DNA of 39,646 nt from Chitinophagaceae bacterium (GTDB taxonomy: Bacteria; Bacteroidota; Bacteroidia; Chitinophagales; Chitinophagaceae): NCBI GenBank assembly GCA_947447005.1, contig CANFHO010000014.1, forward strand, positions 1 through 39,646, read 5' to 3'. The notes below the pieces were generated by a model that was given only the letters and a program-made list of their open reading frames with translations, made no database searches and was not told the origin of the DNA. A program made the translations under genes and the position numbers. Each line of letters starts with the position of its first letter. Position 1 is the stretch's first letter. Shown one piece after another: positions 34,308 through 38,576 of this stretch.

Positions 34308-36293
34308 ATGAAAAAGATTTTTTCAGTTTTATTTTTATCATGTTTTGTTTTAGTGTCATTTGCGCAAGACACCAAAACTGTCGTGTCGAAATACGACCCC
34401 AATGAATTGTTTAATCCTCTATTCTATAAATCGTATGGAAATACGATCAGAACTGGAATGGGTGAGCCCGGTAAAGATTATTGGCAAAACAGAGCTGATT
34501 ATTCAATCAAGGCTGAGTTGAATGATAAGACAAATGAAGTAAAAGGCTCAGTTGTTTTAAGCTATACAAATAACAGTCCGCATCAATTGGATTTCCTTTG
34601 GTTTCAATTGGATCAAAATCTGTTTAATTCAAATTCTAGAGGATTTGCCAAACTTCCAGCAACTGGAAATAGTCGCTATGGAAATGCAAAAACAGTTTTT
34701 GAGGGTGGATATAAACTCGCATCTGTAAAAATCCTAAGCACTGTGGCAGGGAAAACAATTGAGACAGAAGTAACACCAAATGTTGTTGAAACAAGAATGC
34801 GCGTTGATTTGCCTAAAACACTTGCAGCCAATGGAGGTAAGATATCTGTTAAAGTAGATTATTCTTATACGGTTCCTGATTATGGAGCTGACAGAACAGG
34901 TGTGCTTGCAAATCCTGATGGAAAGATTTTTGCGATTGCACAATGGTATCCAAGAGTTTGTGTTTTTGATGATATTCAAGGATGGAATACACTGCCCTAT
35001 TTAGGAGCAAGCGAATTCTATCTTGAATATGGTAATATTGATGTTAGCATTACAGCACCAAGTTCGCATGTGGTTGTAGCATCTGGAGAGTTGTTGAATC
35101 CTGCAGAAGTGTTGACCAAAACCCAATTAGATCGCTATAACAAAGCAAAAAGCAGTGAAACCACTGTTATGATCAGGTCCAAGGAAGATGTAAGGGATAG
35201 CTCTACAAGAGTTCAAAAACCAACATTGACATGGAAATTTAAAATTCTCAATGCACGTGATTTCGCATGGGCATCTTCTTCTTCTTTTATATGGGATGCT
35301 GCCAGGATCAATCTTCCAAGTGGTAAAAAATCACTTGCACAATCTGTATATCCAATCAGCTCTGATGGTAAGGATGCATGGGGTAGGGCAACGGAATTTA
35401 CAAAAGGTAGCATTGAAAATTATTCCAAAAGATGGTTTGAATTTCCTTATCCTGCAGCAAGCAACGTTGCTAGTAATATAGGAGGTATGGAATATCCAGG
35501 TATCGTATTCTGTAGTTCAAGATCTAAAAACGCTTCACTTTGGGGTGTTACAGACCATGAATTCGGACATACCTGGTTTCCAATGATTGTTGGAAGCAAT
35601 GAAAGGAAATACGGATGGATGGATGAAGGGTTCAATACCTTTATCAATGACATCGCAGAAAAGGATTTTAACAATGGTGAGTTTGCTTCAAAACGTGGAA
35701 GCGATGCACATGCCATGTCTAAATTTATGTTCAGTGATAGGTCTGAGTCTATAATGAAAACACCCGATGCATTGAAGGAAGCCAATATTGGTTTATCACT
35801 TTATATGAAACCTGGTGCAGCATTAACATTGCTTCGTGAACAAATAGTAGGTGAAAAATTATTTGATGCTGCTTTCAAGAAATATATCCGTGACTGGGCA
35901 TTCAAACATCCATCTCCATGGGATTTCTTCCATAGCATGGAAAATGGTGTAGGTGAAGATCTGGGATGGTTCTGGAAAGGAATGTTCTTGGAAAACTGGA
36001 GATTGGATCAAGGAATTTCTAAAGTTGAATATATTTCCAACAATGCATCCAATGGTGCATTGGTTACAATCGATAACATGGAAAAAATGGCTATGCCAGT
36101 TATCTTGGCTTATGAAACCAAATCAGGCGTGAAAGGAACGGTTAGGCTTCCTGTTGAAATTTGGCAGAATACAAGCAGCTTCAAAGTTAAAATACCTGTT
36201 CAGGAAGAATTGGCTTCGCTATCCCTCGATCCTGGAAAAGTATTCCCTGACTTTAATAGTGAAAATGATACTTGGACAGCGCCTAAACAGTAA
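34308..36293 (+). CDS. Secreted M1-family metallopeptidase
   Basis: 661 aa from ATG 34308 ([20 protein letters not shown], a clean signal peptide); the ATG at 34230 would put 26 unlikely residues in front. The zinc site HEFGH is at 417-421, with the third ligand E440 18 residues on ([10 protein letters not shown]), the HEXXH-X18-E pattern of M1 aminopeptidases. The GXMEN-like exopeptidase motif is NIGGMEYPG (about 391). An N-terminal beta domain binds the chain, and the C-terminal helical part is short. It is a periplasmic or secreted peptidase and probably removes N-terminal residues from peptides. Confidence 0.92.
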
Positions 36294-36304
36294 TAAATAG
36301 GGTT

Positions 36305-36338
36305 AAAATGGAGAAAAATTTGATTTTTTCCCCATTTT
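36305..36338. terminator. Long inverted repeat overlapping the rpmI promoter, possible terminator or operator
   Basis: AAAATGG at 36305-36311 pairs with CCATTTT at 36332-36338. After one mismatch (A36312/C36331), GAAAAA pairs with TTTTTC (36313-36318 and 36325-36330). The loop is six bases and contains the -33 TTTG. It begins 12 bp after the M1 peptidase stop. It could terminate that transcript or control the rpmI promoter. Confidence 0.5.
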
Positions 36339-36351
36339 ATCCCTAATTTTG
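36319..36351 (+). promoter_or_regulatory. rpmI-rplT promoter
   Basis: TTTG at 36319-36322 (-33), a 21-bp spacer, and TAATTTTG at 36344-36351 (-7). It gives a leader of about 100 bases before rpmI. Confidence 0.65.
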
Positions 36352-36352
36352 C

Positions 36353-36429
36353 ACTCCCTAAAAGATGATTTGTCTTTTAAGGAGTATTCCCAAAAGGTTC
36401 CATAAGACTTTCGTCTGTTCGAAAGCACC
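36353..36429 (+). promoter_or_regulatory. Structured leader RNA of rpmI-rplT, candidate ribosomal-protein autoregulatory site
   Basis: A long hairpin spans 36353-36385: 5 bp, one mismatch and 7 bp around the loop TGATTTG. A second region offers two mutually exclusive stems: AGAC/GTCT (36405-36408 with 36413-36416), or CTTTCG/CGAAAG (36408-36413 with 36420-36425). The latter can be enclosed by GGT/ACC (36396-36398 with 36427-36429). In many bacteria L20 represses its own operon by binding such a leader. That this one binds L20 is inference. Confidence 0.5.
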
Positions 36430-36456
36430 AGCAGGGGTAACATTAAATTTTCAGTA

Positions 36457-36654
36457 ATGCCAAAGGTTAAAACCCACTCAAGGGCAAAGAAAACATTCAA
36501 GATTACCGGTAGCGGTAAGATCACTTACAGAAAACCAACTCGTGGTCACTTGCTCACAAAAAAGTCAACTAAACGTAAACGTGCTCTCCGTGTTGTCGGA
36601 CAAGTACATTCAACTAACCTCGATTTCGTTAAAAGGTTGTTGCGTTTGAAGTAA
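36457..36654 (+). CDS. rpmI: Ribosomal protein bL35
   Basis: 65 aa, full length for bL35. The signature [20 protein letters not shown] is at the start, and the C-terminal half is highly basic ([11 protein letters not shown]). It is a large-subunit component. It is preceded by a structured leader and followed by rplT after 37 bp. infC, which often heads this operon, is not upstream here. Confidence 0.97.
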
Positions 36655-36691
36655 TAGACTTTTATTCATCATCATTTAAACTTATTTAAAT

Positions 36692-37036
36692 ATGCCACGT
36701 TCAAAAAATGCTGTTGCTTCAAGGGCACGACGCAAAAGAATCTTAAAACAAGCCAAAGGTTTCTATGGCAAAAGAAAAAATGTTTATACAGTTGCCAAAA
36801 ACGTTCTTGAAAAAGGTCTTACATATAGCTATGTAGGCCGTAAACTCAAGAAAAGAGACTATCGTAGTCTTTGGATTGTTCGTATTAACGCAGCTGTTAG
36901 GGAAGAAGGTCTTACCTATTCTGAGTTTATCAATAAACTTAAAGTGAAAGGTATTGAACTCGACAGGAAGGTTTTGGCTGATCTTGCCATGAACAATCCT
37001 GAATCTTTCAAAACGCTTGTTCAATCTGTAAAGTAA
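36692..37036 (+). CDS. rplT: Ribosomal protein bL20
   Basis: 114 aa, full length. Typical bL20 motifs: [18 protein letters not shown] near the start, [23 protein letters not shown] cut by family blocks in the middle, and [16 protein letters not shown] near the end. bL20 binds 23S rRNA early in assembly and in other bacteria represses translation of its own operon. A strong terminator follows 21 bp after the stop. Confidence 0.97.
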
Positions 37037-37057
37037 TTTTTTACTGAGCAACATATT

Positions 37058-37090
37058 AACCGGATGTCAAATAAACATCCGGTTTTTTAT
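37058..37090 (+). terminator. Terminator after rplT
   Basis: A 10-bp perfect stem, AACCGGATGT (37058-37067) with ACATCCGGTT (37075-37084), loop CAAATAA, then TTTTATTT. Confidence 0.9.
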
Positions 37091-37111
37091 TTCTTGCATC
37101 TGATAAAAAAT

Positions 37112-37119
37112 TAATTTTG
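37112..37119 (+). promoter_or_regulatory. -7 element of speA
   Basis: TAATTTTG, a perfect TAnnTTTG, 35 bp before the ATG at 37155 and directly after the rplT terminator, as expected for a new transcription unit. A TTG at 37094-37096 is only 15 bp upstream, shorter than usual. Confidence 0.5.
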
Positions 37120-37154
37120 TTACTTATCCTTCACAAAACTGATTTTTAAAGGGA

Positions 37155-38576
37155 ATGGGCAATACATATACTGATCTGGTCAAACAAACTTTTTATTTTC
37201 CTCAAGAGGGGTTTAATACAAAAGAAGGTTATTTGCATTTCAATGATCTTGATATCAAAGCATTGATTGATAAGTACGGAACGCCAATGAAGATAACATA
37301 TCTTCCTAAAATTGGTCAACAGATCAATAAGGCAAAGGATCTTTTTAAAAAGGCGTTTAAAAAACATCAGTACGAAGGAACTTACAATTATTGCTACTGT
37401 ACAAAAAGCTCCCATTTTTCTTTCATACTTGAAGAGGCTTTGTCTCACGATATCAACCTGGAAACTTCCTATGCGTATGATATCGAAATCATCAACAAAT
37501 TGTATGAAAAGAAAAAGATAACAAAAGACATACATATCATTTGCAATGGCTTCAAACAAAGAACATATACATCACGTATTGCAAAATTGATTAATACTGG
37601 CTTTAAGAATGTCATTCCAGTACTTGACAACAAAGAAGAATTGGATAGGTATAGGCGCAGTGTAAAAGTTCCATTTAAACTCGGGATACGTGTTGCTGCG
37701 GAAGAAGAACCCAATTTTCCTTTTTATACCTCACGACTTGGCATCAGGGCTAAAGATATATTGGAATTTTATGTAGATCAGATTGAAGGCTATGAAGATA
37801 AGTTTCAACTTAAAATGCTTCATATCTTTTTGAATAAAGGAATCAAAGATGATATCTACTATTGGAGTGAATTGAACAAGGTAATCAATTTGTATTGTCA
37901 ACTAAAAAAGATTTGTCCTGAATTGGATTCCATCAATATCGGTGGAGGATTTCCTATCAAACATTCATTGGGCTTTGAATATGACTATGGATTCATGATC
38001 AATGAAATTGTGGGAAACATTAAAAAGGCATGTAAAAAAGCCAGGGTTCCTATGCCCAATATATTTACTGAATTTGGCAGTTTTACCGTAGGTGAAAGTA
38101 TGGCACATATCTATTCAGTGATTGCCGAAAAGGTGCAAAACGACAGGGAAATATGGTATATGATTGATTCCTCTTTCATTACAACTTTACCTGATACCTG
38201 GGGAATAGGGGAGAAATTCCTGATGCTACCCATTAATAAATGGCAGAATGAGTATCAACGGGTGGTTCTGGGAGGACTGACATGTGATTCACATGACTAT
38301 TATGATTCAGAAGAACATATCAACGAAGTGTTTCTTCCCAAATTAACCGACCCAGAAGAAAGTACAGAGGCCAATAAGGAACCCTTGTATCTTGGATTTT
38401 TCCATACAGGAGCATATCAGGATCAAATCAGCGGTTATGGGGGCATTAAACATTGTATGATACCGTCACCTAAGCATATTATCATTGGTAAAGATAAATA
38501 TGGCAAATTGCATGATTGGGTGTATGCAAAAGAGCAAACTGCCCAAAGTATGTTGAAAATCTTAGGTTATATCTAG
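37155..38576 (+). CDS. speA: Biosynthetic arginine decarboxylase, PLP-dependent (fold type III)
   Basis: 473 aa. It decarboxylates arginine to agmatine, the first step of polyamine synthesis. It is the short Bacteroidota form, lacking the extra domains of E. coli SpeA (658 aa). The PLP-binding lysine is K84 in YCTKSSHFSF. INIGGGFPIK is the glycine-rich phosphate-binding loop, FTEFGSFTVGESMAH is the conserved strand-loop, and GLTCDSHDYYDS carries the active-site Cys-Asp. The gene has its own promoter. The small secreted protein gene follows after 4 bp. No agmatine hydrolase is in view. Confidence 0.9.
   Translation: MGNTYTDLVKQTFYFPQEGFNTKEGYLHFNDLDIKALIDKYGTPMKITYLPKIGQQINKAKDLFKKAFKKHQYEGTYNYCYCTKSSHFSFILEEALSHDINLETSYAYDIEIINKLYEKKKITKDIHIICNGFKQRTYTSRIAKLINTGFKNVIPVLDNKEELDRYRRSVKVPFKLGIRVAAEEEPNFPFYTSRLGIRAKDILEFYVDQIEGYEDKFQLKMLHIFLNKGIKDDIYYWSELNKVINLYCQLKKICPELDSINIGGGFPIKHSLGFEYDYGFMINEIVGNIKKACKKARVPMPNIFTEFGSFTVGESMAHIYSVIAEKVQNDREIWYMIDSSFITTLPDTWGIGEKFLMLPINKWQNEYQRVVLGGLTCDSHDYYDSEEHINEVFLPKLTDPEESTEANKEPLYLGFFHTGAYQDQISGYGGIKHCMIPSPKHIIIGKDKYGKLHDWVYAKEQTAQSMLKILGYI

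Follow-up and report, generated by a model that had tools for sequence, protein, structure and literature searches.

Within the window, by which we mean the whole 39,646-nt stretch of Chitinophagaceae DNA that was analyzed, the genes for ribosomal proteins L35 (rpmI) and L20 (rplT) lie in tandem, preceded by a promoter-like sequence and a structured leader and followed by an intrinsic-terminator-like hairpin (Table 1). This hairpin is the only terminator-like site in 36100-37200, and none was found within the leader. The TTTG and TAATTTTG boxes were assigned by consensus, and we take them to be a Bacteroidota-type promoter, which a sigma-70 scan did not call. A TA-N2-4-TT(T/C)G box, which is a loose pattern applied without a chance control, occurs 5' of the motif described below in 110/110 leaders. 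The first-pass annotation had placed the leader between a strong promoter and rpmI, and this layout was borne out, with the presumed promoter box on its 5' side and rpmI starting at 36457. From the position of the promoter, the transcript apparently starts ∼30 nt before the conserved core. In the window's own assembly (G000), infC is on a separate contig from rpmI-rplT, and in one relative (G009) the IF3 domain of infC ends ∼360 nt 5' of the motif on the same strand. The nearest named relatives of the window are mostly labelled Chitinophagaceae or Chitinophagales. Directly 3' of the upstream peptidase-like gene there is also a 24-nt inverted repeat (36295-36348, 88% complementary), within which the −33 box of the rpmI promoter is enclosed and which extends into the −7 box. 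It could be a terminator of the upstream gene or an operator. By eye, the close relatives L034-L036 have a seemingly different inverted repeat at the matching place.

Table 1. Features of the rpmI-rplT locus and of its leader (window coordinates)
Feature	Position	Strand	Basis or remark
Putative Bacteroidota-type promoter	36319-36351	+	TTTG 36319-36322, 21 nt, TAATTTTG 36344-36351
Accessory 5'-terminal hairpin (C/A mismatch; no conserved sequence)	36353-36385	+	Folding energy
P1 5' strand UCCC	36388-36391	+	Pairs with 36434-36437
P2 5' strand GGU	36396-36398	+	Pairs with 36427-36429; GG invariant 74/74
Internal-loop strand UCCAUAA	36399-36405	+	AA 36404-36405 invariant 74/74
Lone-pair G36406 (with C36426), then bulged A36407	36406-36407	+	Pair formed in 74/74 rows
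P3 stem-loop CUUUCG-UCUGUU-CGAAAG	36408-36425	+	36408-36413 with 36420-36425
C36426 (lone pair) and P2 3' strand ACC 36427-36429	36426-36429	+	CC invariant 74/74
P1 3' strand GGGG	36434-36437	+	Covariation, ATG spacing
rpmI (ribosomal protein L35)	36457-36654	+	ORF
rplT (ribosomal protein L20; putative repressor)	36692-37036	+	PF00453 E 3.8e-44
Intrinsic-terminator-like hairpin 3' of rplT	37058-37084	+	Terminator scan

Relatives were gathered by their L20, the 200 nt 5' of rpmI were examined, and 74 leaders including that of the window were aligned. Among the 111 gathered loci, L001 and L002 are the window itself, whereas L041, L042, L063, and L078 are duplicates over the stretch used. Thirty loci were excluded by eye as lacking the motif, including L098, which the rpmI pattern also missed, and L061 and L088 were left out because that pattern missed them. 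Searching the 32 excluded loci with a covariance model gave two matches, the best with an E value of 0.11. The alignment defines a conserved element at 36388-36437, which consists of three helices, P1 (CCC/GGG), P2 (GGU/ACC), and P3, and in which the GG·CC pairs and an AA never vary. The stretch delimited in the first-pass annotation, 36353-36429, is thus part of a real structured leader, but it cuts the element, since the 3' strand of P1 lies beyond its end.

Compensatory changes, on whose presence among relatives the first-pass annotation had staked its proposal, are indeed found upstream of rpmI. In the 72 distinct rows, 95.7% of 770 cells are paired and the covariation score is 0.483, compared with 0.198 after shuffling (0/500 as high) and at most 0.168 in slid registers, the scored structure having been drawn from these same aligned rows. 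On a 72-leader tree, the 10 pairs counted show 83 inferred double compensatory changes versus 7, 5, and 8 in slid controls, and 10 changes to a non-pair versus 32-40. This count covers 72/74 rows (L023 and L031 were not parsed) and omits the lone pair and the inner P1 pair, the latter because it is unpaired in 19/72 distinct rows of the shared alignment owing to a shift of register in a subtype of leaders (type II, see below). In P3, 96.7% of cells are paired over the five inner pairs counted, double changes occur at each of them, and 77 double changes were inferred from the tree. The folding energy of the core corresponds to a z score of −0.84 (38/200 shuffles as good), and that of the longer stretch 36353-36470 to a z score of −1.26 (22/200). 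The core is therefore revealed by comparison with relatives and is unremarkable by folding energy alone.

One C of P1, the GG, the AA, and the CC are invariant in all 74 aligned leaders, window included. The three C-G pairs of P1 are unbroken in the 53 distinct type I rows, in which the middle pair is CG in 50 and UA in 3, and 17 of these rows lack the outer pair 36388-36437. The third P2 pair varies between CG (52), UG (11), and UA (9) in the 72 distinct leader rows, and the lone pair is GC in 69/74 rows and AU in 5/74. Nineteen leaders form the type II subtype, in which the register of P1 is shifted by one and P2 is longer; their outermost P1 pair is unpaired in 9/19 rows. Type II rows taken alone have 93.9% of 247 cells paired, a covariation score of 0.281 versus 0.155, and compensatory changes of their own (6 pairs). 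A possible extension of P1 by AUU/AAU pairing was considered and set aside, since it is 66.7% paired with a covariation score of 0.058 and has no clear support. The end of the P1 GGG lies 19-28 nt before the ATG in 108 of 110 leaders; counts of ATG spacing and of the second hairpin presented below cover these 108 leaders, L023 and L125 not having been parsed. Between the promoter box and P1, the spacing spans 4-65 nt across the 110 leaders.

The 12-bp mismatch-containing hairpin described in the first-pass annotation is stable but proved to be a variable accessory. It has 5+8 pairs flanking a C/A mismatch (−13.5 kcal/mol), with a z score of −4.62 against dinucleotide shuffles (0/200 as good); for 36353-36429 as a whole the z score is −3.18 (0/200). 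At least 22 nt separate the promoter box from the core in 66/110 leaders, 60 of which fold in this region at z ≤ −1 against single-letter shuffles (mean z −2.8), and the stems differ in sequence between the leaders shown. Because the remaining 44/110 leaders have less than 22 nt there, the 5' hairpin is optional. The recurrence in many leaders of a 5' hairpin free to vary in sequence is what one would expect if the leader were only a 5' structure stabilizing the mRNA, with no regulator. We consider this very improbable, because it accounts neither for the invariance of the unpaired AA and of GG/CC nor for the tight spacing to the ATG and the position before rpmI.

Two stems that cannot form together had also been proposed 3' of this hairpin, implying a mechanism in which the AGAC/GUCU and CUUUCG/CGAAAG stems exchange upon ligand binding. 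The window sequence allows either stem to be drawn, but they fare differently in relatives. CUUUCG/CGAAAG is P3 and is conserved, whereas AGAC/GUCU is paired in 45.7% of cells, which is below the shuffled mean of 49.3%, with no sign of covariation. The mutual exclusivity of the stems is therefore peculiar to the window sequence, and an exchange of stems, which these values contradict, is extremely improbable.

Part of the family has a second, AU-rich hairpin just before the rpmI ATG (GUAAUC/GAUUA or GUAACU/AGUUA; e.g. L004, L009, and L045). A matching right arm is present in 55/55 leaders with a GUAAUC arm and in 8/8 with a GUAACU arm, i.e. matched arm swaps in 63/108 leaders. At least five pairs can form in 69/108 leaders, compared with a mean of 19.3 (maximum 30) for letter-shuffled sequences and 45.3 (maximum 52) when arms are swapped between leaders. 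This hairpin is absent from the window leader and thus lies outside the core, and it may help control. In seven type II leaders (L049, L050, L052, L053, L055, L064, and L069), a ACUGGGUA stretch recurs before the start codon in place of the second hairpin.

The architecture of the core resembles that of a specific site in 23S rRNA. In an Rfam alignment of two 23S genes of the family, the junction of helices 40 and 41 (H40/41) reads ...UAA-GGu-CCCuAA-g-u-helix...helix-c-aCC-GAA..., in which GGu pairs with aCC and g with c, and the window equivalent is AAAA-GGU-UCCAUAA-G-A-P3-C-ACC-AGCA. Both have a helix, a small internal loop with AA, GGY/RCC, a pyrimidine-rich loop ending in AA, a lone pair, a 1-nt bulge, and another helix. 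The third P2-equivalent pair is C-G or U-A in the 23S genes of the family. They differ in that short helices close the leader at either end, its P1-P2 loop is 4x4 in type I where 23S has 3x3, and its AA is usually preceded by an additional base. A descriptor of this layout, which was written after the 23S structure had been viewed, matches one place per gene in three family 23S genes when a 6-bp helix is required, always the H40/41 junction, whereas 0.125-0.155 matches are expected per shuffled gene. With a 5-bp helix there are 1, 1, and 2 matches (0.36-0.44 in shuffles), the extra one being elsewhere. The descriptor fits 46/74 leaders with a 4-bp helix and 40/74 with a 5-bp helix. By sequence alone, a search with the 5' strand ranks the 23S site 1st, 3rd, and 4th of ∼2,800 positions in the three 23S genes, and with the 3' strand the site is outside the top six. 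A circularly permuted version of the mimicry was dropped because the Rfam structure reveals a direct, unpermuted match. The assembly to which the window belongs yielded no 23S rRNA, despite a stated completeness of 100%.

According to passages of PMC6962249, the C-terminal domain of L20 binds the helix 40-41 junction, and H40/41 is likewise given as the L20 site in a passage of PMC2672003. The core thus copies a known L20 site element by element. The module could instead bind another ligand, such as L35 or an assembly factor, and resemble the L20 site by coincidence. Indeed, inferences drawn from the genes apply equally to L35, which is encoded first. We nevertheless regard another ligand as improbable, because the 6-bp descriptor finds the layout at one place in each of the three 23S genes, the known L20 junction, and because the Escherichia coli and Bacillus subtilis leaders of the rpmI-rplT operon respond to L20 (passages of PMC10931766).

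Together with covariation and a position before rpmI, the likeness to the 23S L20 site lends good support to the proposal, made in the first-pass annotation, of an autoregulatory ribosomal-protein leader layout. In keeping with what is looked for in such leaders, the element has a structure backed by covariation and a consistent position in the 5' UTR: rpmI directly follows the motif at 56/57 examined model loci, window included and mostly the best-scoring matches, the 57th being a chance match (L126, see below). We consider it very probable, judging from sequence comparison, that the element is a cis-acting leader through which L20 represses its own operon at the translational level. In the mechanism we favor, the rpmI-rplT mRNA would start shortly before the element, as the promoter suggests, and the P1-P2-lone pair-P3 module would present a copy of the H40/41 junction. 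L20 in excess of free 23S rRNA would bind this module and stabilize its fold, the 3' end of which lies 19-28 nt ahead of the start codon of rpmI. The folded module would then hinder binding of the 30S subunit to rpmI, and also to rplT if the two genes are translationally coupled. Because the leader appears to copy the rRNA site of L20, the cell can probably detect surplus L20 and shut down its synthesis.

That control would act on translation initiation is suggested by the spacing of the core, tight to the ATG and loose to the promoter, and by the lack of a terminator in the leader. The same observations speak against L20 binding the leader to cause transcription attenuation, which is how the B. 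subtilis L20 leader works according to passages of PMC6097659 and which we judge to be unlikely here, no terminator-like site being present and the spacing being kept to the start codon rather than to the promoter. Returning to translational repression, passages of PMC9976891 state that Bacteroidia ribosomes generally do not recognize Shine-Dalgarno sequences and that strong Shine-Dalgarno sequences precede some Bacteroidia ribosomal-protein genes, e.g. rpsU. Since ribosomes in Bacteroidota mostly ignore this signal, the idea of a hidden ribosome-binding site is not readily applicable, and the likely mode of action would be obstruction of the 30S subunit by the bound module.

The leader had not been matched to a known class in the first-pass annotation, and it still matches none. 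At the gathering score, no Rfam family matches the window leader or the loci of eight relatives, and none of the 15 sub-threshold Rfam matches around the window leader (E ≤ 5) is to a ribosomal-protein leader. The comparison with Rfam L20 leaders suggested at that stage has now been made: RF00558 is not among the matches around the leader of rpmI, even with E values up to 5 allowed. In 40 family genomes RF00558 has no match at its cut-off (0/40); 18/40 have matches below it, and none of the 31 such places listed is near the rplT places located in the L20 search. RF00558 (L20_leader; Firmicutes, infC-rpmI-rplT) is alike in leading an L20-encoding operon and, according to passages of PMC6097659, in having an L20-binding site reported at a helix junction, but the leader described here is a ∼50-nt core before rpmI with no terminator. 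In E. coli, passages of PMC10931766 report that L20 controls both rpmI and rplT translationally with 23S mimicry, as we infer for the present leader. That operator is described as a long-range pseudoknot and a separate irregular hairpin; the leader described here has a single compact three-helix module after an apparent promoter of its own, with an apparent transcript start ∼30 nt before the core and infC on another contig.

The L20 ribosomal-protein leader of Deltaproteobacteria (Eckert and Weinberg 2020, passages of PMC7247131) was, like this one, predicted by covariation. The same passages give two consecutive G-C pairs and an AA dimer as features common to the known L20 leaders; in Deltaproteobacteria these are set in a scaffold of their own. 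Compared by description, the conserved parts are separated by a helix there, whereas GG/CC and AA adjoin here. The two consecutive G-C pairs of this signature are present in our leaders as the invariant GG/CC, and the invariant AA, which has a counterpart in 23S rRNA, is, again compared by description, a candidate equivalent of the AA dimer. None of the 20 leaders in Table 1 of PMC7247131 is for L20 in Bacteroidota. Among the matches listed in a search of full-text literature, with subscription papers, preprints, and supplements outside its scope, there is no L20/rpmI leader in Bacteroidota. Neither L20 nor rpmI is mentioned in the main text of the RNA-discovery papers PMC6429828 and PMC2864571, and PMC2704228 mentions L20 only as a known case. 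Because RF00558 is unmatched, the E. coli operator as described in PMC10931766 is laid out differently, and PMC7247131, in its Table 1, has no Bacteroidota L20 leader, the leader appears distinct from the L20 leaders described and looks like an undescribed fourth design of L20 switch. As far as the literature searched reaches, it would be the first L20 leader for Bacteroidota. L20 leaders illustrate well how different RNAs can converge on a single protein, and the module adds a new RNA family for annotation. With likely recognition elements close together in ∼50 nt, it would also lend itself to structural studies as a minimal L20 target.

The element has one copy in the window's own genome according to the covariance model. 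In the window's family it was found in 202/294 genomes and 72/101 genera, one match per genome, and nothing was found in the other 92/294 genomes; searches of over 40 genomes (family, order, and phylum) used stricter filters, at which weak matches are lost. In the order, 30/198 genomes match, all 30 in the window's own family. In the phylum, 10/296 match, nine in that family and one (L126) inside an apparent sensor-kinase gene, named by eye, which we discarded as a chance match. There is thus no credible match outside the window's family among the genomes sampled. Named carriers include Sediminibacterium, Hydrotalea, Segetibacter, Ferruginibacter, Foetidibacter, Flavisolibacter, Parafilimonas, and a Puia MAG, and the element is absent from the examined loci of Chitinophaga (three), Taibaiella (one), and Flavipsychrobacter (one). 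The 92 family genomes in which the model found nothing and the three Chitinophaga loci lacking the element indicate that it is dispensable or replaceable. We see an even chance that the full scenario is correct, namely that L20 can block entry of the 30S subunit through a compact, near-literal H40/41 copy 19-28 nt ahead of the start codon, with no Shine-Dalgarno sequence to hide, as a form of ribosomal-protein feedback adapted to the ribosomes of Bacteroidota, and that this independent fourth design of L20 leader arose within one family and is missing, or has been lost, from Chitinophaga and similar genera.

In ten loci without the element (L075, L080, L083-L085, L087, and L089-L092), which include those of Chitinophaga (L075 and L092), Taibaiella (L084), and Flavipsychrobacter (L091), the promoter box was seen by eye only ∼20 nt before the rpmI ATG, which suggests an almost leaderless mRNA. 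Two loci carry unexpected titles, L055 (Sphingomonadales) and L089 (Phycisphaerales). Since their L20 proteins are 85 and 81% identical, respectively, to that of the window, these taxon labels look wrong.
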